IMG/VR virus record: IMGVR_UViG_3300021964_011517
Span: 1 to 35,634 of that record
Length of the DNA: 35,634 nt
Strand: one strand, 5' to 3'
DNA from: a virus
Shown here: piece after piece, positions 3,434-33,122 of the stretch
Position numbering within the stretch: position 1 is the stretch's first letter
Layout of the letters: each line of letters begins with the position of its first letter
Notes under the pieces: generated by a model
What the model saw: the letters and a program-made list of their open reading frames with translations, nothing else
What the model was told of the DNA's origin: nothing
The model's database searches: none
Made by a program: the position numbers and the translations under genes

Positions 3434-5215
3434 TTATCCATCACAGGCTTGGCACAAAGGATCTACAGCTGCTGATGCAATATCTCCACGAAGTACTGAC
3501 TCTGTTCTCATATAATATAATGTTTTTATTCCTTGTTTCCAAGCTTCCATGGTAACTTGATTTATCCATTTTGGTGTAGCAATCGATGGAAATGCTAAAT
3601 TTAAAGAAACTGACTGATCAATATATTGTTGTCTAACACCAGCTTGTTTTATTAGATCAAGTTGATTTATTTCTTTAAAAGTTTTGAAAACATCTTTTAC
3701 TTTAAAAGTTTTAAAATTATCTCCTTCTGGAACATCTGTGCAATTCAGAAGTTTTCCATCTAAAAAACACCAGGAATCTAATTCTTTTATGTCTTGAATA
3801 GATCCTCCATCTGCTAATATTTTATCCCAAGTATCTTTATTATTAATTCCTGCTTTTCTAAGGACTTTTATAAGTTCAGAATTTTTTCTGATAAAGGTTC
3901 CCTTTGCTGTTTGTTCTGTAAATACATTAGCTGCCCAAGGCTCTATACCAGCTGATACATTTCCACTGAGTTTAGAGTTTGACACAGTGGGTGCAATAGC
4001 TCTTAAATGTGTGTTTCTAAACCCACTATCTTTACACCAAAGAGGCTCACCTAATTCAGTGGCCATATCTCTACTTGCTCTTTCAGATTCAATCTTTAAT
4101 TGTGAGAATATTTTTCTAGTTTCAAATTGAGCTGTCATTCCCTCAAATGGAATACCACTCTGCTGTAGATAAGTGTGCCAACCTAAAACTCCTAATCCTA
4201 ATGCTCTACCTTTTTCTGCTGATCTAACTGAATTTTCAAATCCTCTAAGACCTTTTGCCTTTTGGATAAATTCTGAGAGTACTCCATCTAAAAACCAAGT
4301 GGCTGTATATATTAAATCCGTATTTTTCCACTCATCATATTTAGCTAAGTTTAAAGAAGATAAACAACAAACAAAAGAGTGTGATTCATCAGTATGGAGA
4401 ACAATTTCAGAACAAATATTTGTCATAAAAACTTTAAGACCATTTTGCTTATACATTTCAGGGTTTTGTTTGTTTACATTCCCCTTGAACAGAATATAAG
4501 GTTCTCCTGTAGCTTTTCTTTTTTGAAGTAGTTTACCCCACTTTCTTCTTGCAGTTTCATCACCATCTTGAAGTTTTCTCATAAATTTATCACCAACAAC
4601 TGCACATTGGTGTAAATTGAGTGATTGTCTATTTACATCTCCTTTTGGTTCTCTTATTTCTAACCATTCTTCGAAATCATCATGTTCAATATTTAAATTT
4701 ACAGATGCTGCTCCCCTTCTAACTGATCCTTGATTAGTAGCTAAAATTGTTGAGTCATATATTTTACAAAAAGGCACGACTCCATCTGAAGTTCCATTAC
4801 CAGTAATTTTAGCACCTGCAGGTCTGATTTGATTGATACCAATGCCAACTCCCCCACCATGCTTTGCTAACAACATCATTTCTAGATTCTTAGCACCTAT
4901 GTCATAGATTGAATCTGCTACATCAATACCAAAACATGATATGGGTAAACCTCTATCTGTTCCAGTATTTGAAAGTACAGGGGATGCTAAACATAGCCAA
5001 CCATTCCAAATATAATCGAAAAATTTTGTAGCTAATTGTGGTTTATTTAATCTCTGTGCTACTCTAGATGCTACTCTCCAATATGCATCTTTTGGTTTCT
5101 CTCCTGGTAGGAGGTATCCCCTTGAGATTGTTTTTACATAAATTTCAGTATCTGCCCATAAAGGATAGTCTACTCCTAATTCCCAACCTAATTCTTTTCC
5201 GTAATGTTTGCTCAT
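3434..5215 (-). CDS. nrdA: Class I ribonucleotide reductase, large (alpha) subunit
   Basis: 593 residues. It reduces ribonucleotides to deoxyribonucleotides for phage DNA synthesis. Active-site features are visible: Cys94 in PISCFG, the N-x-C-x-E triad at 266-270 (NICSE), a cysteine pair at 283-284, and the conserved tyrosine pair Y567-Y568 in TLYYMRTES for radical transfer. A C-terminal CQAC (588-591) serves as the redox shuttle. The protein is about 160 residues shorter than E. coli or T4 NrdA. It begins close to the catalytic barrel, so the N-terminal ATP-cone that lets dATP switch the enzyme off is absent. Its start lies 12 bases after nrdB, with AAGG upstream. The stop is followed by thioredoxin, giving an nrdB-nrdA-trx unit. 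Confidence 0.95.
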   Translation of the reverse strand: MSKHYGKELGWELGVDYPLWADTEIYVKTISRGYLLPGEKPKDAYWRVASRVAQRLNKPQLATKFFDYIWNGWLCLASPVLSNTGTDRGLPISCFGIDVADSIYDIGAKNLEMMLLAKHGGGVGIGINQIRPAGAKITGNGTSDGVVPFCKIYDSTILATNQGSVRRGAASVNLNIEHDDFEEWLEIREPKGDVNRQSLNLHQCAVVGDKFMRKLQDGDETARRKWGKLLQKRKATGEPYILFKGNVNKQNPEMYKQNGLKVFMTNICSEIVLHTDESHSFVCCLSSLNLAKYDEWKNTDLIYTATWFLDGVLSEFIQKAKGLRGFENSVRSAEKGRALGLGVLGWHTYLQQSGIPFEGMTAQFETRKIFSQLKIESERASRDMATELGEPLWCKDSGFRNTHLRAIAPTVSNSKLSGNVSAGIEPWAANVFTEQTAKGTFIRKNSELIKVLRKAGINNKDTWDKILADGGSIQDIKELDSWCFLDGKLLNCTDVPEGDNFKTFKVKDVFKTFKEINQLDLIKQAGVRQQYIDQSVSLNLAFPSIATPKWINQVTMEAWKQGIKTLYYMRTESVLRGDIASAAVDPLCQACDG

Positions 5216-12902: not shown

Positions 12903-15900
12903 CTATTTCTCTAATGAATATTTTAAATCTTGTGGGTTTATTGCTTTATTTAACTTTTCTACTCCATAATGTATATGGTTTGTAACACCTTGATAGTTTT
13001 TTTGAAGGTCTACTTGTATAGCGTTACCTATAAAATTGCCTTTTTTAACTTGTTGTCCATATAATTTTTTCTCAGGAGCAAAATAAAATATTTTTACTAC
13101 ATATCCTGTATACTTTCCTGTTCCTATAATTTTAGCTCCAGGCAAAACTGAATCTTTATCCGATTTCCAAAAAAGTAATCTTCCATCTATAGGAGCAAAA
13201 ACTTGAGTCCCCCTTCCTGAATAAAGTGATGATAATAATGCTGTTGTTGGTGCGACAGTACCAGTTTGTGTTGGTAAATTAGCATTATTTTTATTTGTAG
13301 CAGTGTTTGGATACTCGGCAAAAATATTTATATCTCTAGATGGGGGTACTACTGTTGATAAATCAATCCCTTCATGAGTCCTTCTATTTTTCTTGCTTGT
13401 ACTTCTAGGTGCACCAAAAGATCCTGCACCTTGATCATCATTTCTAATATTTAAACTAAGATTTCCTAAAGGTGGAAAGAAAGTTAAATCTTCATCTTCT
13501 TCTGGTGTTTCTTGATTTTGTTGTTCTGAAGCCTGTTCTTCTTCTTTTGCAAGTATCTCATTAACTGCTTCTATATCAGTTTTAGCCACATTTGGCTTTG
13601 AAATCGCTCTAATTTCAGTTTCCCATGCGTTATTTGAAATTCTATGTGTTACATTCATTATCACAAAATCTATGACTTCTGGGTACGGTTTTGGTAAAAA
13701 TTCTGAATCTATTGATAGTTGGTTATAGATTTTTATACCTGATATTCCATCTAGAGTTAAATTTATATCTATAGGTATAAAACCTAATGTTGTTGAAGCA
13801 AGTGAGCTTCCTATTTCCTTTTCTAAAAAAACTTTACTTGCTCCTAAAAATTTCTGTAGAGCAGATGATAATCTTGCTTCTCTTTTACCTTCACTATTAA
13901 ATTCAAAATATTTAAAATGTTTTGTATCAAATTCACCACCTTCAGTAATTGAATCTTCTGTTCCAAACATTATAGATAGAAGTTGAAAATATGTATCTCC
14001 AGCTTCTGATAGATTTTCTCTGGCTATTTCTATATCAGTTTGATCTTTTTTATCTTCAGGTTTTGATGAATCTGATGAGAAATCAGTACCTGAAAAATCT
14101 GGTGTTATAGGACCAACTCCTCCAGACTTGATAGCACCTTTTAAATAAGCACCAGCTATTTTTAACAAATCAGAAGACGAAATGTTTTTATTTGATTCAC
14201 CTGCTCTACATGATTCAATGAAAGGTTCAGTCTCTTCATCAGGATTGTTATCCGAACTTTTTTCTTGAAACCTATCTTTCAAACCTAAATTAAGATTCTC
14301 AAAAAATCCAGATACATTTGTTGTGTTTGTTCTATTAGAAGCAGCACCAATAGTTATTTGAGAGGCTAATTGATTTGATATTCTAGTATTAAATCTGAAG
14401 TTTTTTACAAAATTTGATTCTAAACTATCTGGATCATATCCAAAAACTTTGATTATGCCTTCCTTATCTTCTTCTTCTTTTTCAAACCTTTCCCCGTCTG
14501 TTCCTACTCTACTTTCTAATTTTGTGTCCCTTATGACCAATACGTTACCCTCTTGTATACCAACTCTTAAATCAACATAATTACCAAAACACTTATTTAC
14601 ATTAGTCAGAACTGTATTAAGTAAAGATAAAAGGTCAACGTCAACGGTATTTGAACTACCTAGTAAATTTTTAAAAGTATTTTCTAAAGTACCTATATTC
14701 AGGTATATATTCATAATTTTACCTAAATACGGATTATCTCCTACATTTATTGATCTAAAATTAGAAAAAAGCTTGTCGTGTGCATAGTTGCTGCCTATTT
14801 TCTTTTTTTCAAATTCCCCCAAAAAATCATTCTTTATGACACAGACACCAGGATTTGTAGATATAAAACCTGGAAATGTTCTCATATAATTTGTATCTGA
14901 TGTACTAACAGAAACCATTGGAAAAGTTTTACTTTGGTTTGTGATATGTGGAATTATATTCTTTTCCAACCACTCTAAAAAAGCCCCAAATCTTATATAA
15001 AGAGTATTTTGTGGCATGTCAATGTTAGGATCTAAAACATTCTCATATTCCTTTACATTTACGTAATCAGAATTATTTTCTTCACTATTAAAAGGATTAT
15101 TTTCTTCAAGGGTATTTTGAAGACAATATAAATAGTTTCTTACATCATCCTGATTTGCTTGTGTTTGTTCAGTTTCATTATTCTCAGTAAAGTTAGGTAC
15201 TGTATTCTTTTTGGTTAATGCATTTACCTTGAAGGATTCAACTACGTCTCCTAAATCTCTTAAAACAAGATCAATCTCATAGTACCCAGAAGGATGAAAT
15301 GTCCAATCAAAATTGACTACTCTGCCAAAAAAGGCATCATAGTTTCCTTGAAACTCTTCTCTTTTTTCCTCTATTTTTTGAAAAAAACCTAAATGAGTAA
15401 GTAATTCAGCAGGAGGATCAAACCATGTTCCATCATCTATTAAAGTTACTGTATCAACTCCTGTATATTTTAGTCTTGTATTTATCTGACCTGTTCCAAC
15501 TGATTTTGGTGCTGGGCCGATATTTGTTGAGCTAGTTTGATCAAGTTGACCTTCAGTACCAAATTCTCCAAAAGAACCCTGTCCAACTTCAACTGTACCT
15601 ACTGGTTTTCTCTTTTTTTCTGAGTTTTCAAAATACATGTTGTTACCCCATTCAACAAAAATTGTATAACCCAATCTTACATAAAGAAGTTCTAATATTT
15701 CAAATTGTAATTTATTATTTGCTCTTATTTTAAGTTGGCCAAATCTTATAGATCCTATATCATTGTGAGTCAATGTAAAATCTAAAATACCAGGCATCGG
15801 TTGTTGACCAAAATCTAGTCCTCCTATTCCATACAAAGAATTTGGCAAAGCATTTTCAACAAGCCCTGAAGTTTGTGGATTGTCAGATTTACTTGAATAT

Positions 15901-16205
15901 CCTCCTCTTAAATCTGTTGGATTATTATAATCTTGAATACCATTGAAAAGAACAAACTTTTTTGCTAGTTCTGTGCCTTTTAAGTTTCCATTTAATCCAA
16001 TATTTGTAAGTCTAGAAGAATCTTCTATAGAAACAGAAGAAGCACATTTAATCCATGAATTTTTAGAATTCAGATAGGCAATCTCCTCTGGAGTTCTTGT
16101 ATCTGAGCCTAAACCTGCACCATGGATTTTTTGTCGGATCTTTATCTGATCCTTAACATAATCTTTATAGGGTTCTCCAACTATAGAAGGATTGATATTT
16201 GCCAT
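12903..16205 (-). CDS. Baseplate hub protein with C-terminal M23 endopeptidase domain
   Basis: 1100 residues. Residues about 100-330 contain a hub-like beta region (GILDFTLTHNDIGSIRFGQL, LGYTIFVEWGN). A long middle follows, then an acidic linker near 880-910 (QQNQETPEEDEDL). The C-terminus (about 940-1100) is a lysostaphin-type M23 peptidase: H944-x3-D948 in THEGIDLS and H1077-x-H1079 in NHIHYGV. These are the zinc ligands and catalytic His. A 40-residue insertion follows the first motif. The domain should cut peptidoglycan cross-links as the tail enters the cell. This is the job that the gp5 lysozyme does in T4, so a different enzyme class fills the slot. The N-terminal gp27-like assignment is less certain than the peptidase. 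Confidence 0.88.
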   Translation of the reverse strand: MANINPSIVGEPYKDYVKDQIKIRQKIHGAGLGSDTRTPEEIAYLNSKNSWIKCASSVSIEDSSRLTNIGLNGNLKGTELAKKFVLFNGIQDYNNPTDLRGGYSSKSDNPQTSGLVENALPNSLYGIGGLDFGQQPMPGILDFTLTHNDIGSIRFGQLKIRANNKLQFEILELLYVRLGYTIFVEWGNNMYFENSEKKRKPVGTVEVGQGSFGEFGTEGQLDQTSSTNIGPAPKSVGTGQINTRLKYTGVDTVTLIDDGTWFDPPAELLTHLGFFQKIEEKREEFQGNYDAFFGRVVNFDWTFHPSGYYEIDLVLRDLGDVVESFKVNALTKKNTVPNFTENNETEQTQANQDDVRNYLYCLQNTLEENNPFNSEENNSDYVNVKEYENVLDPNIDMPQNTLYIRFGAFLEWLEKNIIPHITNQSKTFPMVSVSTSDTNYMRTFPGFISTNPGVCVIKNDFLGEFEKKKIGSNYAHDKLFSNFRSINVGDNPYLGKIMNIYLNIGTLENTFKNLLGSSNTVDVDLLSLLNTVLTNVNKCFGNYVDLRVGIQEGNVLVIRDTKLESRVGTDGERFEKEEEDKEGIIKVFGYDPDSLESNFVKNFRFNTRISNQLASQITIGAASNRTNTTNVSGFFENLNLGLKDRFQEKSSDNNPDEETEPFIESCRAGESNKNISSSDLLKIAGAYLKGAIKSGGVGPITPDFSGTDFSSDSSKPEDKKDQTDIEIARENLSEAGDTYFQLLSIMFGTEDSITEGGEFDTKHFKYFEFNSEGKREARLSSALQKFLGASKVFLEKEIGSSLASTTLGFIPIDINLTLDGISGIKIYNQLSIDSEFLPKPYPEVIDFVIMNVTHRISNNAWETEIRAISKPNVAKTDIEAVNEILAKEEEQASEQQNQETPEEDEDLTFFPPLGNLSLNIRNDDQGAGSFGAPRSTSKKNRRTHEGIDLSTVVPPSRDINIFAEYPNTATNKNNANLPTQTGTVAPTTALLSSLYSGRGTQVFAPIDGRLLFWKSDKDSVLPGAKIIGTGKYTGYVVKIFYFAPEKKLYGQQVKKGNFIGNAIQVDLQKNYQGVTNHIHYGVEKLNKAINPQDLKYSLEK

Positions 16206-16207
16206 AA

Positions 16208-16507
16208 CTATGCATTTGCTTTTTGGAAGTTTGAGATGATTCCAGTGATATTAGCTGGTATTCTTATTTGAATTCCTACTGGTGGGTAATAACTACTCTG
16301 ATCTGTTCCATAATTTGCTATTGAGATAGCCCACCATAAAGAAGGATCTTTATAATATTGATTAGCAAGAACGTCATATCGATCACCTTGGCCTGTTATT
16401 ACATACAAATCTTGATCAGAAAGTTTTACTTCAGGGTACCTTACAGTTCTATAGAATTCAGTTCCCTGTAAATTTATTCTTTTTTTTATGTTAGTATATC
16501 TTCCCAT
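16208..16507 (-). CDS. Baseplate wedge protein, gp53-like with LysM fold
   Basis: 99 residues. The segment LYVITGQGDRYDVLANQYYKDPSLWWAI followed by PPVGIQIRIP has the LysM-like pattern found in gp53-type baseplate proteins: strand, helix with D-x-L-A-N-x-Y-Y, Trp-Trp, and a closing strand after PVG. The start overlaps the stop of the preceding large gene as TAATG (16505-16509). The hub protein follows after 2 bases, so these three are one coupled block. In T4 gp53 joins the wedges to the hub; the same role is inferred here. Confidence 0.8.
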   Translation of the reverse strand: MGRYTNIKKRINLQGTEFYRTVRYPEVKLSDQDLYVITGQGDRYDVLANQYYKDPSLWWAISIANYGTDQSSYYPPVGIQIRIPANITGIISNFQKANA

Positions 16508-18594
16508 TATCCACCAAAGGGTAATCCTCCTGATTTTTTACTGCTAATTGACGAAGGTGCTGAAATTTTAAAAGGACTAGCTTGAGGCCCTGTAGTTTTA
16601 AGTTTTTGTGCACCAGTTTGTAGACTCCTAATCCCATTTCCTAAAACTTTTGCTGCTGTAGTAGGCCTGAAACTTAAATTAGGATTGGTTGCTCCTACAT
16701 CATCTGAATCAAAAATTGATTTTCCAGCCTCTGATTTTAGGGCAATAAATGCTTCCTTACCAAACTCTTCTAATTCTCCATTAGGTCCAAATTGATTCTG
16801 CTGTTTTCTAGGTGCGAAATCATGTATTGGGTTAAATGCAAATCCAGTAACTTGAATTATATGAGGCATTTCTCGTACTTCTAGGTCAGTTGGTATAGTT
16901 TGTCTACTGTTAAAACCTGTACTTTCTTCGCTATCTGGTAATCCTATTTCCCATGGTGATTCATTTGGCACAGAAATATTCATTGATGTTATTACCCCAG
17001 GAGTTTCCCAAAAATACCCACCAACAGTCAAATTAACAACATTACCAGCAAAATAACCTTTACTAGTGTAGTCCCCTGTCATTACAGACTGCAAATAGTT
17101 TAATTTAGTATACATAACCATAAGCTCCTCTCTAGATTGAGCAGCAATAGTCCATGATAAAACAACATTTCTTTCAAATCCCTGAAATCTATATAAAGGA
17201 TCTGTTCTACCCATATATCTTAAAGTTTCATAATTAGATGTGTAATTATCAGTAAATCCATCTAAAAATGCTCTAAAGTGAATATATGTTCTTTTTCTCG
17301 GATTATTGGTGTCAGGAACAGAAAATCTAAATTTTACTAGATCGTTTTTGAGAGCATTTGCTGTAACTCCTGAAGACTCATAAAGAGGTAATCCATTTAC
17401 TTTGTCTAATTTCTCTCCTAGGCCTTGTGTATATGAAGAAAGATCTTTTGTTACTTTGCCTGGATCACCTAAACCAACTCTTGTTTCTATGTTTTTAGTA
17501 GTATAATCTACAGGTGCACTTAATATATTTTTTTTCTGTCCTTTATTTTGTTGTCCAAATACATCAAAACGAAAATCTGGTAATATTTTTCCAGGATTGT
17601 TAACTACTAAATCTGCTTTTTGCTGTATTGTACCAGCATCTAAAAGATAATATTTAGATCTAAAAGATTCAGTATTATAAGCATTAGTATCTGACGCTCT
17701 TTTTATAATTGTTTTTCCTATCCCTAAAAAAGAACCTGGTCCTCCTCCATATGACAAAATCTCCCCTTTTGCTGTAGAAATATTTAGTTTTGAAAGAGAT
17801 GGATTGTTTGAAGATAAATCTGGTACTTTATCTTGTACTCTACCACTTACAGGATCTTGTAGTCCTAAAAGACCCGTTAAATTATTACCTATAGTAGTAA
17901 AGTTCAATGCTCTAGCAAAAGCAGCAGAAGCACCATTTGGTGTTTTTGGTGCTATTTTAGCTGATCTAAGTTGAACCAGCCTATTCGCAGAATCTTCTTG
18001 GTCTGAAGTTACTTGATTTAAGTATAAAGGGAAAGTTGTTGCATTATCAGCAGCTTGTAAACCTTTTTTTACTGTACCTAAAGCTTTTTGAAAAAATCCA
18101 TCTCCACTCGGTGCAGTATCTTGCTCATTAAGAGGGTTTACAGACAGGTCCCTAAAAGGGTTTATTCCTTGCTTAACTAAATGACCTCCTATAAAAGAAA
18201 CACCAGCTTGTGCTAAGGTATTTGTTGGTAAATAAATTCCTTGATTGAGAATGCCACCTCCCTGTGGTTTCACATTTGTTCTAGAAAGCAAATTTTGCTT
18301 GGCTACAAAACCCAACCCTTTACCAGTAGTAAAATATTTTGTTAGCCTTACAACATCATTTAAGCTTCTTTCTAGAGAGCCAGCTCTAAGTAAAAAGTCT
18401 CCGTTACCTAATAAACCAATATTAGGATTGTCTTCCTCTACTCCAGGAAGTGATTCAGTGATAAAAGGCTCTCTTGAGTTTCCACCCCCTTCACGGTCTC
18501 TACCATATTTGAGAGATCTTAGTCTAGTTCCAGAGCCTTCACCAGTAGAGTCTTTTATCAACCTATCTTTTAAGTTTGTAGGTTGTTGAGACAT
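16507..18594 (-). CDS. Large tail/baseplate structural protein (tube-cap or tube-initiator candidate)
   Basis: 695 residues. The first about 400 residues are Gly/Ser/Asn-rich, low in hydrophobic runs, and look partly disordered. The second half (about 410-610) is more ordered and reads like a tail-tube-fold domain, with KFRFSVPD, ERNVVLSWTIAAQS, LMVMYTKLNYLQSVM, NLTVGGYFWETPGVITSM and the Pro-rich end of the domain. It lies between the tape measure gene and gp53, where T4 has gp48 and gp54, which cap and nucleate the tube. That assignment is from position and pattern only. The tail after 610 is again low complexity, ending in GGLPFGG. Confidence 0.75.
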   Translation of the reverse strand: MSQQPTNLKDRLIKDSTGEGSGTRLRSLKYGRDREGGGNSREPFITESLPGVEEDNPNIGLLGNGDFLLRAGSLERSLNDVVRLTKYFTTGKGLGFVAKQNLLSRTNVKPQGGGILNQGIYLPTNTLAQAGVSFIGGHLVKQGINPFRDLSVNPLNEQDTAPSGDGFFQKALGTVKKGLQAADNATTFPLYLNQVTSDQEDSANRLVQLRSAKIAPKTPNGASAAFARALNFTTIGNNLTGLLGLQDPVSGRVQDKVPDLSSNNPSLSKLNISTAKGEILSYGGGPGSFLGIGKTIIKRASDTNAYNTESFRSKYYLLDAGTIQQKADLVVNNPGKILPDFRFDVFGQQNKGQKKNILSAPVDYTTKNIETRVGLGDPGKVTKDLSSYTQGLGEKLDKVNGLPLYESSGVTANALKNDLVKFRFSVPDTNNPRKRTYIHFRAFLDGFTDNYTSNYETLRYMGRTDPLYRFQGFERNVVLSWTIAAQSREELMVMYTKLNYLQSVMTGDYTSKGYFAGNVVNLTVGGYFWETPGVITSMNISVPNESPWEIGLPDSEESTGFNSRQTIPTDLEVREMPHIIQVTGFAFNPIHDFAPRKQQNQFGPNGELEEFGKEAFIALKSEAGKSIFDSDDVGATNPNLSFRPTTAAKVLGNGIRSLQTGAQKLKTTGPQASPFKISAPSSISSKKSGGLPFGG

Positions 18595-18608
18595 GTTTAA
18601 CTAAGTGT

Positions 18609-18836
18609 TTATCCTTCTGTAGCTACAGCAGATGCGTTAGTTGCGTCTTGAAGTCTATTGATATCAGCAACACTAATTGTAGCATCATATGTACCGTTTT
18701 TAAAAGTATCATTGATGTACAAAGTAAACTCTCTTTTTAAAGGAGCTGTTGGTGCTGAATCATCCTTAGATACTCCTGTACTGTTTGGAGATCCTTGACC
18801 TGCGTAGCGATCTAAAATGTTTGTATAATTTGCCAT
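18609..18836 (-). CDS. Small hypothetical virion-type protein
   Basis: 75 residues with an Asn/Ser/Thr/Ala-rich composition and a short central strand region, KREFTLYINDTFKNGTY. There are no membrane segments and no cysteine. It follows a perfect late-promoter motif and stands between the tape measure and the large tube-cap-like gene, so a structural or assembly role in the tail is likely. I recognise no family. Confidence 0.7.
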   Translation of the reverse strand: MANYTNILDRYAGQGSPNSTGVSKDDSAPTAPLKREFTLYINDTFKNGTYDATISVADINRLQDATNASAVATEG

Positions 18837-18853
18837 TTTATAAAATGTTTATG

Positions 18854-18866
18854 TTTATTATAAATA
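18854..18866 (-). promoter_or_regulatory. Putative late promoter
   Basis: Exact TATTTATAATAAA on the coding strand, 17 bases before the start of the 75-codon gene, in the 48-base gap after the tape measure gene. Confidence 0.6.
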
Positions 18867-18884
18867 TTGAGTTGTTATATAATT

Positions 18885-21722
18885 TTAACCAAATTCTACT
18901 CTGCTACTAAACATACTTACATCAGTACCAAAATCTTGTACTCCAACCTGTAATTTCTGCTTAGATCTTCTTGTCATTTCGCTTTCTTTAGCTAAAACTC
19001 TTGTTTGATTCTCCGTAACTTCTATAAGCTTTTTATTCATACTCAAAAGCTCTTTCAAATCTAGATTTTGTGTATTATTGTTTATAGTAGATACCTGTGA
19101 AGTATTTATGTTTGAAACAGGATTGAACATTGACTCATTAGCAATCGTATAAGTTTGCCCAGTCATAGATGATCTCATTGGCTTTATTGACTCAAAACCT
19201 CTATATGAAGGTTGTCTTTCAGATGGCCTCATAAAACCTAGATCTCTAAAAGATCCATCTATCATTGCTTTAGATACTGCTGTTGAACCTAATTCTCTAA
19301 AAGATCCATCTGTCATTGCTTTAGATACTGCTGTTGAACCTAATTCTCTAAAAGATCCATCTGTCATTGCTTTAGATACTGCTGTTGAACCTAATTCTCT
19401 AAAAGATCCATCAGTACCAGCTATCACAGCTTTATCTTTATCGTTTAATTTAAATGTACCCTCTGGTCCTTTAATTACAGTGTCTCCATATTCTGATTTA
19501 TTTGGATATACTATATCATCGGCAAAGCTTGTAACTATTTCACCTACACTTGCTATTCCTGCTCCTATAAGTGCACCAGCTCCTGCTCCAATAGGTCCAC
19601 CAATCATCCCTATTGCTGCACCTGTTAGTGCTCCAATACCTGCTCCAGTTAAAAGCCTATCTACTGTGGCTGCTACTTTTTCTACACTTTCTCCTAAACC
19701 ATCAAAAAAGGAAACTAAAGTTTTTACTGGATTTAACAGTCCTTTTATTACTACTCCAACGTATCCTAAAACTTTTCCTATAGGTGCTAATGCTGTTGCA
19801 ATACCCACAAAAGCTTCTTTTAGTTGTAGAATAATAGCGTTAAACTCTTCTGCAACAGAGGCTTGTTTTTCAAGAGTTTCAATGCTTTCTTGACCTAAAA
19901 CATTTATAGCACCTTGTAAACCTCTTTCTGCTATAAGATTATCAATAACAGCCCTTCTTCTATCTGCTGCTTCACCTGTAAGAGTTCCTAATTGCTCTTG
20001 AATCAATAACTGAGCACCAAGTTCCTCTCTTGACATCATTACAGCATCTGCAAGTGCCTGTTGTTGAATTCTATTTAATTTGGCAAATTCAGCTGCGGAT
20101 CCTGCTTGCTGTGCAATCTCTTTTGCTACAGTTGCTATATCATTATTTAATGCTGCAAATCTTGCTCGTTCAAGGTTTAAATTTCTGCCTAAAAGAAGTT
20201 CTGCTTCTAATTCAGAAGTTATAGAAGATTCAAACTGTAGTAATCCATCAGCTATTTTTTCAACTTGGGATAGTTGTAATCCTAAAGCTTTAGCTGTTGC
20301 TGCTGCATCTGCTATCGCAGCTGGACTTCTTTGTAAAGAAAGTAGTGTCGCAGCAGAGATATTTTTTATCTCTCTAAATAATTCTTTTTCATTTACTAGA
20401 ACACCTTGCCTTGCTGAAGAAATTTGTGCTTGTGCTAAGAATTCAGCTGTTATGGCCTCTGCACTATCTCCTGTTGCAAGAACTAATTGTGAAACTCCTA
20501 CTAATTCTTCATTTGTTAAACCTGCTTGTTCTCTAAGTTTTGTTAAAAATACTAAGCTTTCTTCAAATCCATCGCTTAGACCTGTGAATTGTCTAGTTCC
20601 AAGTGATTGATTTATAGCTGATAAAGTTTCTAATAATCCTTTACTCGTTACAAATATTTCATTTGTAGATCCTGCAATCCCTACAAATTCTTGTCTTATT
20701 CTTTGAGCCTCAAAGTATGTAAGGTTAAATTGCTTAGCTAAGTCTCCTGCTTGTGTGTCAACTTGTTTTAAAGCTGAATATAGTTGTTTTAGAGCTGCAC
20801 TCGCAAGAAGAATTGGATTAGTTAGATTTTTTTTAATTTTTGGTCCTAATTTTGATATTAGTAAACCAGTTGCATTAAACCCTTCTGGTAATTCTCCTTG
20901 TTCTTTTATAATATCTCTAACTTCTTGTTGAACTTCACCAAAAGCTTCTTTTATAGAGGGTCCTATTAAAGGAACTTTTCCTAAAACATCAGCTACAGAC
21001 TTTGCGTCTTCAGTAGCTTTTTTTACTTGTCTTTCTTCTTCCTTTCTTTGTTTTATTCTTGCTTCTAAAATTTCACCAATGGTTGTTTCTCTTTCAATAA
21101 CACCATCAAGTCTATCCTGTCTTGCTTGTATTTCATCATTTATAATTTTTTCTATTGATGAAACTTCTTTAAGTCTTACAGTTTTTCTTTCTAATTCTCT
21201 AAGCTCTTCTTTAGAAGCTAATCTAAGATCTCTTTTGTTTATGAGTGCTGCTACTTCTTGCTCTAAATTTTCTTTACTTGTAGATATTAGGTCTTTATTA
21301 CTCTCTAATATTGAAAAATTTCTTTGTAGTCTCTTATCTAAAGTTTCAAGTTGTTTATCACTTAGGTTTATTATATCTCTTTGATCTAACTTTAAATCAG
21401 TGGCAACTCTTCCTATGTCTCTATAGGCATTCCTTACTTTATTTATCGGCTCATTTGATTTAGAAAATTCTGCAACTGTTGCAGCTAGTGCAGCCTCTAT
21501 TCCTCCTAGATCATTATTTATAGCATCTAAAATATTTGAATAGGACTGAAATTGGTTTTCTAAGTCTTCAAAAGCTTTTGAAGTGTCTTGAATATTGCGA
21601 ATACTTTCTTCACTTGAAAATCTAGGGTCTTGTGAGAAAGGTGAAGTTTCCCCTAGCTCTTTAGCTTGTTGTTTGATCCTTTCGAGAAGTTCCTGTATCC
21701 TTTTTAGTTGTTCTTCGTTCAC
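18885..21722 (-). CDS. Tail tape measure protein
   Basis: 945 residues. The N-terminal 240 residues are long charged coiled coil (ELLERIKQQAKELG onward). The middle is helical and Ala-rich, and hydrophobic segments lie near 640-725, including ALTGAAIGMIGGPIGAGAGALIGAGIAS. These are the usual marks of a tape measure that sets tail length and may enter the membrane. Near 775-835 sit four copies (three full) of DGSFRELGSTAVSKAM, encoded by 51-bp DNA repeats. The position after gp26/gp51-like genes matches T4 gp29, although the T4 protein is shorter (about 590). The start is GTG with a late-promoter variant 9 bases upstream. Confidence 0.88.
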   Translation of the reverse strand: MNEEQLKRIQELLERIKQQAKELGETSPFSQDPRFSSEESIRNIQDTSKAFEDLENQFQSYSNILDAINNDLGGIEAALAATVAEFSKSNEPINKVRNAYRDIGRVATDLKLDQRDIINLSDKQLETLDKRLQRNFSILESNKDLISTSKENLEQEVAALINKRDLRLASKEELRELERKTVRLKEVSSIEKIINDEIQARQDRLDGVIERETTIGEILEARIKQRKEEERQVKKATEDAKSVADVLGKVPLIGPSIKEAFGEVQQEVRDIIKEQGELPEGFNATGLLISKLGPKIKKNLTNPILLASAALKQLYSALKQVDTQAGDLAKQFNLTYFEAQRIRQEFVGIAGSTNEIFVTSKGLLETLSAINQSLGTRQFTGLSDGFEESLVFLTKLREQAGLTNEELVGVSQLVLATGDSAEAITAEFLAQAQISSARQGVLVNEKELFREIKNISAATLLSLQRSPAAIADAAATAKALGLQLSQVEKIADGLLQFESSITSELEAELLLGRNLNLERARFAALNNDIATVAKEIAQQAGSAAEFAKLNRIQQQALADAVMMSREELGAQLLIQEQLGTLTGEAADRRRAVIDNLIAERGLQGAINVLGQESIETLEKQASVAEEFNAIILQLKEAFVGIATALAPIGKVLGYVGVVIKGLLNPVKTLVSFFDGLGESVEKVAATVDRLLTGAGIGALTGAAIGMIGGPIGAGAGALIGAGIASVGEIVTSFADDIVYPNKSEYGDTVIKGPEGTFKLNDKDKAVIAGTDGSFRELGSTAVSKAMTDGSFRELGSTAVSKAMTDGSFRELGSTAVSKAMIDGSFRDLGFMRPSERQPSYRGFESIKPMRSSMTGQTYTIANESMFNPVSNINTSQVSTINNNTQNLDLKELLSMNKKLIEVTENQTRVLAKESEMTRRSKQKLQVGVQDFGTDVSMFSSRVEFG
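19243..19412 (-). repeat. 51-bp tandem repeat in the tape measure gene
   Basis: Three full units at 19243-19293, 19294-19344 and 19345-19395, plus a partial fourth of 17 bases. Units 2 and 3 look identical; unit 1 differs by one codon (Ile for Thr). Since 51 is a multiple of three, the number can change without breaking the frame. Confidence 0.9.
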
Positions 21723-26956: not shown

Positions 26957-28132
26957 TTAAAATGGTACTATAGTAATTAAAGCTGCTAATGCACCTACAT
27001 AAATAGTGTATGGTACTTGTGCCAACTCTTTATTCTTAAACTCTGATTCGTTTGCTCTCCTCTCTAACAATGCCTGTCTTGATGTTTGATCTAAATATTC
27101 TCTCAATCTCTCTATCAATCTAACTTTGTTGTCTGCTGCCTCTCTTAAAAGAGAATCACCATTTAAAGTTACTTCAGAGTTAGGGATGGGTAGAGTTGAA
27201 TACTTACTTCTAACCCAACCAAGCATTTCTTTAGCTATTGCTAGTGTATACTCGAATATCCATTGTCTTCCTACTGAATTAATTCTGCTATAGGTTGGAT
27301 TACTATATGGAGCATCAGCAACAGAACTTACTTTATTATCGCTAGGATCTATACTATTACTTAGTCTTTCATCATCTTTTATATACTCAATGAAGATGCT
27401 ACCTGTGCTTACAGTTGGTATAGGGAAAATTCTTAGTCTGTTATTTATAATCTCAAATGAGTAGTTAGATTTTCTAACTTGCTGATTCATCTCAATAGCC
27501 TGTATTGTCTGCAAATCATAAGACAAAGGCATCATCAGATAATTCGTTGCAGGGGACATGGCTGCAAATCCAAATGAATTAAATAAAGCTTGGAAGCCAA
27601 ATCCTGTTCCTGAATAAGGGTCATAATATTGTGTTATTGCAGGTGGTGCTTCATAGAATACTTTTTTCACCTCAATACTACTTGTAATTCCTAAATTGTT
27701 TTTCCAGGCTTCTAAGTCATAATCTTGTTGATTACTAACTACATTTATACTTCCTGAATAATATTCTAAGTTACCTCCTGATCCTGCTTCTGCACCATAT
27801 TGTTTTGATAATCTTATGATATTACCCATGTTTGGAGTTACTACTTTATTTGTAGCATCACCATTTACATCAGATCCTTCAAGTGAAAGTTGATTATCTC
27901 TCACTTTAAAAGCAAATACTTCATTTCCATAAGTAGTGATTGCTTCTTCAAAAGCAGTATAGAAATTTATGTCTTGAAGTTCAATATCATTCAAGGGATA
28001 TCCCATTCTTCTAGTACAGAATTCAGCTACTTTATCTGCATCTGTTCTAAAATCTTGATCTAAGTCATAAAATCCAAAAGGAGTATCTCCAATATCAAAG
28101 GAACTAGATCCTGGCCAAATGGGTATATTCAT
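26957..28132 (-). CDS. Neck protein, gp13-like
   Basis: 391 residues. N-terminal features typical of gp13 are FTYG-like spacing in CTRRMGYPLNDIELQDINFYTAFEE, and a helix with AITTYGNEV. Later come RLRIFPIPTVSTGSIFIEY, and IFEYTLAIAKEMLGWVRSKYSTLPIP, as in other marine T4-like neck proteins. The C-terminus carries RLREYLDQTSRQALLERRANES. It binds the portal vertex after packaging and serves the gp14/gp15 join. The start has a leader TAAATAAAGAATTATG, nearly identical to that of the tiny Cys-rich gene just upstream. Confidence 0.85.
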   Translation of the reverse strand: MNIPIWPGSSSFDIGDTPFGFYDLDQDFRTDADKVAEFCTRRMGYPLNDIELQDINFYTAFEEAITTYGNEVFAFKVRDNQLSLEGSDVNGDATNKVVTPNMGNIIRLSKQYGAEAGSGGNLEYYSGSINVVSNQQDYDLEAWKNNLGITSSIEVKKVFYEAPPAITQYYDPYSGTGFGFQALFNSFGFAAMSPATNYLMMPLSYDLQTIQAIEMNQQVRKSNYSFEIINNRLRIFPIPTVSTGSIFIEYIKDDERLSNSIDPSDNKVSSVADAPYSNPTYSRINSVGRQWIFEYTLAIAKEMLGWVRSKYSTLPIPNSEVTLNGDSLLREAADNKVRLIERLREYLDQTSRQALLERRANESEFKNKELAQVPYTIYVGALAALITIVPF

Positions 28133-28142
28133 AATTCTTTAT

Positions 28143-28211
28143 TTAACAATCGCAGCAATCGCAGTCGCATGATGTGCCGCAGTTACAAATTTTGCAATTA
28201 CATTTATTCAT
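28143..28211 (-). CDS. Cys-rich metallothionein-like microprotein, 22 residues
   Basis: A 22-codon frame with nine cysteines at residues 4, 6, 9, 11, 15, 17, 19, 20 and 22; the rest is mostly Asn, Asp, Lys and Gly. The Cys-x-Cys spacing (CNCKICNC, CDCDCC) is that of metallothioneins and other soft-metal-binding peptides. It has a proper ATG and TAA, and fits exactly between the 141-codon gene and gp13. The 10-base linkers before it and after it are almost the same: TAAATAAATAATTATG and TAAATAAAGAATTATG. This shared initiation context is the best sign it is translated. Metal or disulfide chemistry, or a zinc-bound virion part, are guesses. Confidence 0.65.
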   Translation of the reverse strand: MNKCNCKICNCGTSCDCDCCDC

Positions 28212-28221
28212 AATTATTTAT

Positions 28222-28647
28222 TTATGTTGTAGCAATAAAATATTCAATCTTAGCTGAACTACCTGATGGTTTTAATTTTATTGATGCTATATCATCATAT
28301 GCATAACTAGAAGATAAACTTCCAGTGTATTCACTTGTAGATAGTGTAAATATACTTCCACCATTTACTTTAAAATGAGCTGATTCAGTTGATGATGATA
28401 CATGGACATCTACAAAACTTGAAGTAGTAACATTACTTATTCTAGCATACTTGATAGAACTTGTTATAAAAGTCCCTGCTCCTACAGTATTACTTAAATT
28501 AAATATAGCTGCTTCAGTATCTGCAGGTATAGTCATGGTTCTATGATCAACAGAATTTATTCCTGTTATATCATGTTGATAGTAAGTGCTTCTATCATTA
28601 CCATCTAAAGTAATGTCTTCTTGCACTACAAGTTTCAAAGTTGCCAT
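28222..28647 (-). CDS. Beta-rich hypothetical virion-type protein
   Basis: 141 residues, rich in Ser, Thr and short alternating strands (TLKLVVQEDITLDGND, FVDVHVSSSTESAHFKV). It ends with KLKPSGSSAKIEYFIATT. There is no signal peptide, membrane segment or cysteine. The composition resembles small decoration or fibre-associated proteins. It is preceded by an exact late-promoter motif 9 bases from the start and heads a unit with the Cys-rich microprotein, gp13, gp14 and gp15. A head or neck surface role is plausible but not shown. Confidence 0.75.
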   Translation of the reverse strand: MATLKLVVQEDITLDGNDRSTYYQHDITGINSVDHRTMTIPADTEAAIFNLSNTVGAGTFITSSIKYARISNVTTSSFVDVHVSSSTESAHFKVNGGSIFTLSTSEYTGSLSSSYAYDDIASIKLKPSGSSAKIEYFIATT

Positions 28648-28671: not shown

Positions 28672-29406
28672 TTATCTTTTAGACGAACCACTGAAATCTG
28701 AGAATGTTATGTGATTCAGTTGCTCTTCATAATACATTAAGATATCTTCTACTATTGGATCTCTATGATTTGTTGTTAGAGTTAAGGCTTCTAGATTTTT
28801 TATTCTTCTAGAGGCTTTATACAAAAATTTAAATCCACTATCAGCTTTTCTTCTCAAATCTATCTGTTTATCATCACCACAAATAATCATCTTAGATCTT
28901 AATCCCAATCTAGATACTAACATTTCCATTTGCTCGTGGGTAACATTCTGTGCTTCATCTACAATCACTATAGAATCAAGAAAAGTTCTCCCCCTCATAA
29001 AAGATACTGGTACTATTTCTATACTGCCATCAGTTAGATATTTTTCCATTTTATCTTTTCCATAAAGAGTATAAAAGTTCTGATATATAGGCTGTACCCA
29101 AGGATCCATTTTTTCCCTCATATCTCCTGGTAGGAATCCTATATCTTCTTTTGATACAGTTGGTCTTGTAATTATTATGTTTTGATATTCTCTCCTGAAT
29201 AATCCATCTAAAGCTATATTACAAGCTAATAGAGTTTTTCCTGATCCAGCTGCTCCTGCTAATAAAGTTATGGTATTTCGGAGTATTATATCCTTAGCTT
29301 CTTTTTGCTCTTCGTTTAATTGAATCTGAAACTTGATAGGGTTTTTACGAGTTCTTTTCCCTTTGTACACATCATCTGTGTGATGTTTTGAGGTAGGCAT
29401 AAACAT
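28672..29406 (-). CDS. phoH: PhoH-like ATPase
   Basis: 244 residues. Walker A is GAAGSGKT (near 52-59) and Walker B is SIVIVDEAQN. ITRPTVSKEDIGFLPGDMREKMDPW and SFMRGRTFLDS are the signature stretches of PhoH, with ICGDDKQIDLRRKADSG as the sensor part. PhoH is a predicted RNA/DNA-binding ATPase common in marine phages. It is often called an auxiliary gene of phosphate stress, but its activity in phages is not established. Here it lies directly after the major capsid terminator and has its own late-type promoter, so it is probably made late, with the virion proteins. Confidence 0.92.
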   Translation of the reverse strand: MFMPTSKHHTDDVYKGKRTRKNPIKFQIQLNEEQKEAKDIILRNTITLLAGAAGSGKTLLACNIALDGLFRREYQNIIITRPTVSKEDIGFLPGDMREKMDPWVQPIYQNFYTLYGKDKMEKYLTDGSIEIVPVSFMRGRTFLDSIVIVDEAQNVTHEQMEMLVSRLGLRSKMIICGDDKQIDLRRKADSGFKFLYKASRRIKNLEALTLTTNHRDPIVEDILMYYEEQLNHITFSDFSGSSKR

Positions 29407-29481: not shown

Positions 29482-31110
29482 TTATAGAGTATTTAAACCA
29501 GCTACTTCAATTGTACCATAAAATTCTGGTCTGACTATCTTCTTAGCGTATCTAGTCAAGAGACCTTTTCTTGGTGTAAAGGTGTCTGGATCGTACACTA
29601 GAGGAGTCATAATTAATGGAATATAAGGAGCAAATACAGCACCACTTTCCAAGAACTGAGTACCTCTATATCCTAAAAGGATTTGGTTTTCAGTCATGTA
29701 TGGGTTTTTGTATACTTTATATCTTCCATTCAACTGTCCTACTTTTTGCACACCGAATGCATAAGTATTTTTAGCTGTATCTCCATCGCTATCAGCAGCA
29801 AATCCAGGAATAGACTCAAGGATTGTACCTACAGTCGGAGAACATACTAGGAAGTTTGCACCACCTCTAAGGGTTTTTTGGTGAATGATGTTAGAAAGCT
29901 TTTGGATTTTAGTTCCAAGTGTTTGGAACCACTGTCCTTGGCTGTTATAATATCCACCGTCAGCTACACCTTTTCCATCAAATGCAGTACCTGCGTTGTT
30001 GATGAATTGGTTAGAAACTGCAGACCATTTTTCTGTACCTGCACCTGCAGAAGTAAGAAGCATATCTAAGATTTCAAGATCGATCTCTAATGAGATGTGC
30101 TCTGAAAGGATAGAAGTCAATTCTGCTTCAGCATCAAGTGCATGGTAAGCATTCAAGTCTTGTGCAAACTCAGGAGTCCATACAGCTTTTAGTTTTCTTG
30201 TTTTAGCAACAATAGCAGATGATTTCATCTGTACGTTGATTTCAGGAATGCTGATTGGGTTGTTATTGTTGTTCAATGCAGTGTTTTGATCTTCGAAATC
30301 ACCTCTGTACTGATCAGTTGGTTGTAATTGATACTCAACTGCGAATGTTTGTCCATCACCTACGTCAGATCCAGAAACGATAAATGTTACGTTAGTAGCA
30401 TCTACAGTTGTGAATGCAGGAAGGTTTTCAGCAGCAGTAAGAGCTGAACCTGTGATTACAAATCCACGTACTCCTTCTACATCTAGGTTAGCTAATTGAG
30501 CTCTTGTTACAGCAACTTTAGTATATCCACTAGCAGCTGCAGAAGCAGAGTAAGTAGAATCAAAGTTTAAATCTGCCCAAGTTGCAGATGAAGTTACACC
30601 TGTTACAGCAGATGAAGTGTTGTTGATAGAATATGTAAATCTACCAGCTCCATAGAATCCACCTGTGTTAGTGTTACCAAAAGGAGTGTTTCCTCCTGTA
30701 TCACCATATACAGAGCTTCCAGCTGTGTAAGGCTGCTTGCTAGTTCCATATTGGAAATCTAGATAAAATACAAGCCCAGAGGGCAAGTTCATTGGCTGTA
30801 CAGAAACAAATTCTTTAGCAGCAATCTGTCCGAATACTTTACGTACTAGGGGAAGTGCTACTCCAGCCCATTGCTCACCTACACCAGCAGTAAATGTACC
30901 TTGTGAAGATGTACCCCCACCAGTTTGAGAGCTCTCTACTACAAGCTGCTTAGCTTGGTTTTCTAACAACATAGACATGTTGCTTTTGTGGGTATTATCA
31001 AGACCTTCTAAGAGTCCTGTTTTTTCCCACTTTTGTGCTAGTCTCTTAGCATCACTCATTTGTGACTGGTAAGGGTTAGCACTTTCTAAAAGTGTGTTTA
31101 TATTACTCAT
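29482..31110 (-). CDS. Major capsid protein, gp23-like
   Basis: 542 residues, close to T4 gp23 (521). Diagnostic segments: NTLLESANPYQSQ at the N-terminus, LPLVRKVFGQIAAKEFVSVQPMNLPSG, RKLKAVWTPEFAQDLNAYHALDAEAEL, LEIDLEILDML, and TRYAKKIVRPEFYGTI near the end. A likely maturation cut by the prohead protease is after Glu59 (LVVE, then SSQTGG), which would remove the propeptide as in T4 (cut after Glu65). It lies 13 bases after the scaffold gene and is followed by a strong terminator, with no separate promoter motif directly before it. Confidence 0.96.
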   Translation of the reverse strand: MSNINTLLESANPYQSQMSDAKRLAQKWEKTGLLEGLDNTHKSNMSMLLENQAKQLVVESSQTGGGTSSQGTFTAGVGEQWAGVALPLVRKVFGQIAAKEFVSVQPMNLPSGLVFYLDFQYGTSKQPYTAGSSVYGDTGGNTPFGNTNTGGFYGAGRFTYSINNTSSAVTGVTSSATWADLNFDSTYSASAAASGYTKVAVTRAQLANLDVEGVRGFVITGSALTAAENLPAFTTVDATNVTFIVSGSDVGDGQTFAVEYQLQPTDQYRGDFEDQNTALNNNNNPISIPEINVQMKSSAIVAKTRKLKAVWTPEFAQDLNAYHALDAEAELTSILSEHISLEIDLEILDMLLTSAGAGTEKWSAVSNQFINNAGTAFDGKGVADGGYYNSQGQWFQTLGTKIQKLSNIIHQKTLRGGANFLVCSPTVGTILESIPGFAADSDGDTAKNTYAFGVQKVGQLNGRYKVYKNPYMTENQILLGYRGTQFLESGAVFAPYIPLIMTPLVYDPDTFTPRKGLLTRYAKKIVRPEFYGTIEVAGLNTL

Positions 31111-32510: not shown

Positions 32511-33122
32511 TTAAAAAAGTGGACACGAGCCTTTTGAACAAAGGATTTCTTTAATTATCTCGTCTACTTTTCTGTATTTATCCAAATTTTGGAACGTTTG
32601 TTTATTTTCATTTAGCTGCACTGGAGACATGAAACTTCCTGGGTTTGAGGGTGTTGATACAAAATCCCAGCATATTAAATTGAAATCATCTTGTACTTCA
32701 TATACACCTCCTATTTGTTTTACACTTCCTTCTCCTCTTGAGGAAACTCCTACGACTATACCACTATCTATAAGAGATTTTAGAATATTTCCTGCTGGTG
32801 TTGGTAATATTTCTATTCGACCCATTACGTGATCTCCATCCCACCAAGTAGACTTTATACAGTGTGAGACATTTTGTAAATTTATTATTCCTGTTTCTGG
32901 ATGGTCTAATTCGCCTATAGCACGATTTTCTTTTATAAGAGTTTGATAGTTATCTATTTCCCTTTTCCATAAATCCTCTGGATATTCTCTTTGATTGCCA
33001 TTTTTCTGATTTACAGTTGTAAGAATTCCTTCTACCTGCATATTTCCAGATGGAGACTTCGATTCAACCAAATTTTTAGAAGGTTGAAACAACGAAGTTT
33101 CAATAAGTACTTGCTTTGTCAT
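32511..33122 (-). CDS. Prohead maturation protease, gp21-like
   Basis: 203 residues, close to T4 gp21 (212). The serine protease signatures are His74 in AIGELDHPE and the serine pair 127-128 in VVGVSSRGEG. The region GNMQVEGILTTVNQKNGNQREYP is typical of this family. It cleaves the scaffold and the capsid propeptide inside the prohead and then degrades itself. The C-terminus has a Cys-x4-Cys-PLF end not needed for catalysis. It starts 2 bases after the preceding helical core gene. Confidence 0.9.
   Translation of the reverse strand: MTKQVLIETSLFQPSKNLVESKSPSGNMQVEGILTTVNQKNGNQREYPEDLWKREIDNYQTLIKENRAIGELDHPETGIINLQNVSHCIKSTWWDGDHVMGRIEILPTPAGNILKSLIDSGIVVGVSSRGEGSVKQIGGVYEVQDDFNLICWDFVSTPSNPGSFMSPVQLNENKQTFQNLDKYRKVDEIIKEILCSKGSCPLF

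Follow-up and report, generated by a model that had tools for sequence, protein, structure and literature searches.

A nine-cysteine microprotein family of environmental phages with metallothionein-like traits

Can an open frame of only 22 codons, nine of them for cysteine and lying between two genes of a phage, be a gene, and if so, what might its product do and why should it be sited there? The question is raised by a window of 35,634 nt (positions 1 to 35,634 of IMG/VR virus record IMGVR_UViG_3300021964_011517), in which a first-pass annotation had pointed to such a frame as a gene too short for standard callers. The features on which the argument turns are as follows.

28143..28211, minus strand: gene for the nine-cysteine 22-aa microprotein MNKCNCKICNCGTSCDCDCCDC (open reading frame, with same-length relatives in unrelated viral contigs)
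28222..28647, minus strand: upstream gene 'vir', 141 aa, all-beta protein (structure model)
26957..28132, minus strand: downstream gene, gp13-like head-tail adaptor (PHROG 211)
28672..29406, minus strand: PhoH-like protein, the neighbour used for fetching relatives
29482..31110, minus strand: T4-type major head protein (context)
32511..33122, minus strand: head maturation (prohead) protease (PHROG 207); in L214 and L320 a homologue immediately precedes the family member
28205..28224, minus strand: upstream repeat copy TAAATAAATAATTATGAATA (vir stop, spacer, microprotein start), one of only two copies in the window
28126..28145, minus strand: downstream repeat copy TAAATAAAGAATTATGAATA (microprotein stop, spacer, gp13 start), the other copy

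The frame, its flanks and a direct repeat

The frame runs from ATG to TAA and occupies most of the 89 nt (28133-28221) between vir and gp13, with the cysteines of its product at positions 4, 6, 9, 11, 15, 17, 19, 20 and 22; coordinates and cysteine count thus bear out the frame as originally described. Allowing up to two mismatches, the nine-cysteine scaffold occurs once in the window and in none of 100 shuffles. Designation of gp13 as a neck protein is supported by its match to PHROG 211 (head-tail adaptor Ad2) at E 3.7e-12. The label 'virion' for the upstream gene at 28222-28647 is no more than plausible: the gene has no PHROG or Pfam match, and its all-beta model has weak PDB matches only. 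Elsewhere in the window, frames of 1100, 695 and 945 aa, all large and with no counterpart in PHROGs, lie within 12903-21722 (minus strand). The large subunit of a ribonucleotide reductase is encoded at 3434-5215 (minus strand), on the downstream side of the structural genes.

The first-pass annotation had also drawn attention to an almost identical 16-base initiation context common to the microprotein and gp13. The near-identity stands, but it extends to 20 nt (TAAATAAA[T/G]AATTATGAATA, with one difference) and is better explained as a junction repeat. The period of this direct repeat is 79 nt, no third copy with up to three mismatches is present in the window (chance expectation of such matches, 0.10), and the 20-nt context is not shared by the starts of other genes in the window. 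Since it is found only at the two edges of the frame and not at other starts, it would be a duplicated junction flanking an insertion and not a common initiation signal. The microprotein frame looks inserted, and reading the repeat as the insertion scar accounts for the initiation context noticed earlier.

Relatives with the same gene order are pertinent here. Relatives of gp13 (58-67% identity) were taken from viral contigs, with further loci reached via the PhoH neighbour. In the closest contig (L002, the sole near-identical one) the frame is identical to that of the window and so uninformative on selection. L002 aside, loci in which gp13 directly follows the 141-aa gene mostly have 9-20 nt between the two and no frame; two further relatives with gaps of 76-82 nt are likewise without it, and at many more distant loci several hundred nt separate the two genes. 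Of 25 longer contigs with relatives of gp13 or PhoH, two carry the microprotein, and in the contigs of L017 and L039, two further ones bearing gp13, it is far from that gene. Given these vacant gaps, no conservation in place with the neck module was found. The proposal that the peptide might be part of the connector fails on this evidence: related phages with the same gene order and no frame, the very finding named beforehand as counting against it, do occur, and family members elsewhere adjoin many other genes. As most relatives of the window are without the gene in the stretches examined, it is not essential.

Extent and conservation of the family

A scan of viral contigs for MNKCNCxxCNC gave four contigs beyond L002, all with 22-codon frames and the same terminal cysteine, e.g. 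MNKCNCQVCNCGTSCGCSCCNC. Scanning for the nine cysteines plus the glycine yielded at least 120 matches, which, low-complexity ones aside, are frames of 20-23 aa with their own ATG and, among the matches listed, with the stop codon at, or at most two residues past, the last cysteine. When the glycine was not required, 32 of the full set of 50 matches were family members and the remainder mostly of low complexity. Viral contigs and fetched loci together give at least 143 distinct peptides, 20-23 residues long and built on the scaffold CxCxxCxCxxxCxCxCCxC, in at least 166 distinct upstream contexts. These counts are lower bounds. The IMG/VR contigs are mostly fragments. Carriers scanned across the whole record have one copy each.

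Against well over a hundred family matches in viral contigs, about 85,000 bacterial and archaeal species genomes gave a single match (nine cysteines plus glycine, with a TAA stop), on a contig labelled uncultured Flavobacteriaceae, and the family is nearly confined to viruses. That contig, together with Flavobacterium phage relatives of gp13 and of the cupin considered below, provides the sole hints of host. A scaffold match in Flavobacterium phage immuto was rejected, as it reads through a stop codon, and tiny genes after the cupin in immuto encode hydrophobic peptides outside the family. Single peptides gave no matches in Pfam, NCBIfam, PHROGs or the PDB, nor did tblastn against named phages, although with only 22 aa of low complexity as query that search has little power. 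The gene is also missing from six related phage records, four of named phages and two uncultured, when these are scanned for the first six cysteines of the scaffold. The open-licence literature yielded no prior description of phage metallothioneins or phage cysteine-rich microproteins, an earlier account in closed literature being possible. Fremin, Bhatt and Kyrpides are said to have predicted very short phage genes on a large scale in 2022 (Cell Rep 39:110984), and the present family may be among their small phage gene families. The family is widespread, strictly conserved and apparently unnamed.

Pattern scans select for cysteines, and so only a half-pattern scan and neighbour-anchored retrieval count as tests. 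The former fixed only M-K-C-[ND]-C-x-x-C-x-C-G, that is, the first four cysteines, and the remaining five were all kept in 118 of the 120 matches listed. The other two (one variant, in L283 and L301) have histidine in place of the sixth scaffold cysteine, the sole cysteine replacement seen among the matches listed and one that turned up without being specified; histidine is a metal ligand too. Across the 67 distinct second halves, which the pattern leaves free, TGT and TGC are both used and between them make up 334 of 335 cysteine codons; diversity at the three codon positions is 0.22/0.18/0.47, and these features together are taken as a coding signature. With loci fetched through a neighbour and no cysteine pattern, the frame was present in 33 of 77 reached via a 163-aa protein with two CxxC pairs and in 21 of 68 reached via an FAD oxidoreductase, and divergent peptides among them, e.g. 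MKCECKNCGCNKSCDCTCCNC, have lost the glycine and retained all nine cysteines. The two approaches show that the frame codes for protein, that purifying selection on its cysteines is strong and that its distribution is patchy. Family-wide conservation and the coding signature thus vindicate the notion of a real but uncalled short gene, and the frame in the window is, judged by these features, a genuine accessory phage gene that is presumably translated, and presumably late.

Two variants are of separate note. L523 (minus strand, near 795-854) has a pair of cysteine modules, MRNRQNCNCENCKCQKACNC-MKCNCSKSCDCACCDC, in the manner of modular metallothioneins. In L176 one A fewer in a run fuses the upstream cupin-like frame to the microprotein, which is either real or a sequencing error.

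Neighbours of family members

Among the matches listed (133 non-redundant loci), co-directional neighbours are the rule, at 123 of 127 on the upstream side and 121 of 130 on the downstream side, with 49 of the 123 upstream genes overlapping the microprotein start or ending at most 1 nt before it. A small protein whose model (pLDDT 93) matches RmlC-like cupins in the PDB is upstream in 30 of the 133 loci listed, with an overlap of 4, 8, 11 or 14 nt in 26; the cupin fold is often metal-holding. The FAD oxidoreductase (Pfam Pyr_redox_2, PHROG 12409) is downstream in 41 of the 133 and the 163-aa protein with two CxxC pairs is a partner in 15. The prohead protease homologue, matching window positions 32541-33113, is the upstream neighbour in L214 and L320. 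Some other neighbours may be capsid-targeted, as their N-termini resemble T4-type capsid-targeting sequences (for which see PMC9958956 and PMC9026906). The microprotein gene is usually an accessory one and is found at various late-gene sites in environmental phages; its recurrent neighbours (cupin, FAD enzyme, CxxC protein and proteins with capsid-targeting-like N-termini) indicate no single pathway.

Several features of these neighbourhoods merit mention in their own right. The N-terminus MDNFDLxKYLAEGxL is common to many otherwise different proteins (e.g. in L186, L199, L204, L265 and L288) and looks like a capsid-targeting tag on a large set of head-cargo genes. Larger upstream proteins in L161, L164, L176, L235 and L277 have a cysteine-rich N-terminus of their own (MCxCGCNTC or similar) that precedes an LNE motif, a possible prohead-protease site, and this N-terminus may be a propeptide. 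Located 5′ of the FAD oxidoreductase gene (L171, at about 825-925, L182, L205, L237 and others) is a conserved hairpin whose loop hardly varies (ATTCATAGC, once ATTTATAGC) and whose stems covary, with 20 distinct ones, e.g. GACTG-ATTCATAGC-CAGTC and GTCCG-ATTCATAGC-CGGAC; 3′ of it are a GC-rich terminator-like hairpin and then a CGTATATT box. The loop-bearing hairpin has no match in Rfam, is found with or without the microprotein and is possibly a new phage RNA element. Its candidacy as a binding site for the peptide was set aside because it persists where the peptide gene is absent.

Metal binding and its rivals

Given the conservation pattern, the metal-binding peptide initially envisaged is the best reading of the product, and that it binds metal through its thiolates is very likely. 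High cysteine content, small polar spacers, absence of a tenth cysteine from all 143 family peptides listed, a single aromatic residue in one of those 143, and replacement of cysteine by histidine only, are metallothionein-like traits. The cysteines, nine of 20-23 residues (the variant with histidine excepted), are in CxC, CxxC and CC arrays, as expected for the class. Similarity to a defined family was not found, however: Pfam and NCBIfam gave no match at E<=10, and the sole PDB match of the family profile, wheat Ec metallothionein (2KAK), is at E 6.9, not significant. With homology to metallothionein families tested and not found, the microprotein is filed under no named family. The fuller proposal, to which we would give a probability of roughly 0.6, is of a minimal metallothionein-like peptide that, by metal-thiolate binding, buffers or delivers zinc or copper late in infection.

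Mechanistically, a peptide without its own fold would close around a metal-thiolate cluster, and, if the nine-cysteine beta domain of metallothionein is a guide, its nine thiolates might accommodate some three Zn(II) or about six Cu(I). If produced from a late operon, it would most likely serve to buffer or pass on zinc or copper while metal-dependent phage proteins fill the cell (metal and purpose both being guesses), and to scavenge oxidants. The N-terminal beta domain of human MT3, also with nine cysteines, binds Zn3 or Cd3, or else four, six or ten Cu(I) (PMC13107397). In contrast, the microprotein is a free-standing peptide of 20-23 aa with a 19-residue core and another cysteine spacing that includes a CC pair, and homology between the two is not detectable. 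Closer in size are the single-cluster copper metallothioneins of Neurospora crassa and Agaricus bisporus, and that of Neurospora has a CNCGxxCxC stretch in common with the microprotein. Short fungal copper metallothioneins have seven cysteines (PMC13107397). They are eukaryotic, no sequence match to them was found, and the likeness is probably convergent. Wheat Ec-1 (TTCGCGEHCGCNPCAC, aligned with the family consensus keCnCGtsCeCtCCdC in the match of E 6.9) is larger. Among prokaryotic cysteine-rich zinc proteins, SmtA/BmtA share CxCxxCxC spacing with the microprotein, which has no match to a family in Pfam or NCBIfam, and SmtA is larger, with histidine ligands. SmtA binds four Zn in a zinc-finger fold (PMC10612145).

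Alternatively, the metal could be structural, and the peptide could act as a zinc-cluster adaptor or inhibitor by binding to a single protein of host or phage, such as a nuclease, polymerase or protease. Its fixed scaffold and near-invariant core positions (Gly9 in 120 and Ser11 in 119 of the 143 peptides listed) are stricter than a pure metal buffer would need, but the residues between the cysteines are mostly small and polar, they vary, and hydrophobic or aromatic side chains from which to build an interface are nearly lacking; the idea is rather unlikely. Packaging with internal head proteins, the peptide then bringing metal or thiols to the next host, draws on the neighbours with capsid-targeting-like N-termini and on the prohead protease adjacent to the gene in L214 and L320. 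However, though its neighbours have look-alikes of the T4-type targeting sequence, the peptide itself begins MNKCNC or MKCNC, with neither such a sequence nor the glutamate cleavage motif, and its site in the window, between vir and gp13, is no cluster of internal proteins. Virion carriage is accordingly quite unlikely, and the bolder version, a virus-borne metallothionein-like family that shifts from one late operon to another in environmental phages, is packaged or injected and controls host zinc, copper or redox from the first minutes of infection, is at least as doubtful.

For a very short, cysteine-rich frame ahead of another gene, there is precedent in the polycysteine short ORFs of mycobacteria, which are reported to act as attenuators (Canestrari 2020, cited in PMC7790235). 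Leader translation would there sense cysteine supply and set expression of the next gene. Exact spacing, the Gly and Ser positions and the change of cysteine to histidine would be pointless for codon counting; the downstream genes are many and unrelated, no cysteine-synthesis gene was recognised among the diverse neighbours, and a terminator-like hairpin intervenes in the FAD context, so that this role was rejected as highly improbable. As improbable is that the adjoining FAD enzyme or cupin turns the peptide into a modified (RiPP-like) or disulfide form: frequent as these neighbours are, the FAD gene is behind the terminator-like hairpin and has no adjacent peptide gene in 47 of 68 loci, the peptide in the window adjoins neither enzyme, and a leader region is absent. 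A chance frame or non-coding DNA, to which the shortness of the frame and its uninformative identity in L002 give some opening, is already refuted at the family level by conservation, the coding signature and the shuffles, and its probability is close to nil.

A metallothionein-like peptide thus remains the preferred reading, and the family has significance beyond it. Strictly conserved proteins of 20-23 residues went unseen in Pfam, NCBIfam, PHROGs and the PDB, and they illustrate phage coding capacity beneath the thresholds of gene callers. If virus-borne and metallothionein-like, they would be among the shortest and most cysteine-dense of conserved proteins; and if they do bind metal, phages bring their own metal-buffering peptide, which would be an unrecognised layer of phage-host conflict or metabolism.
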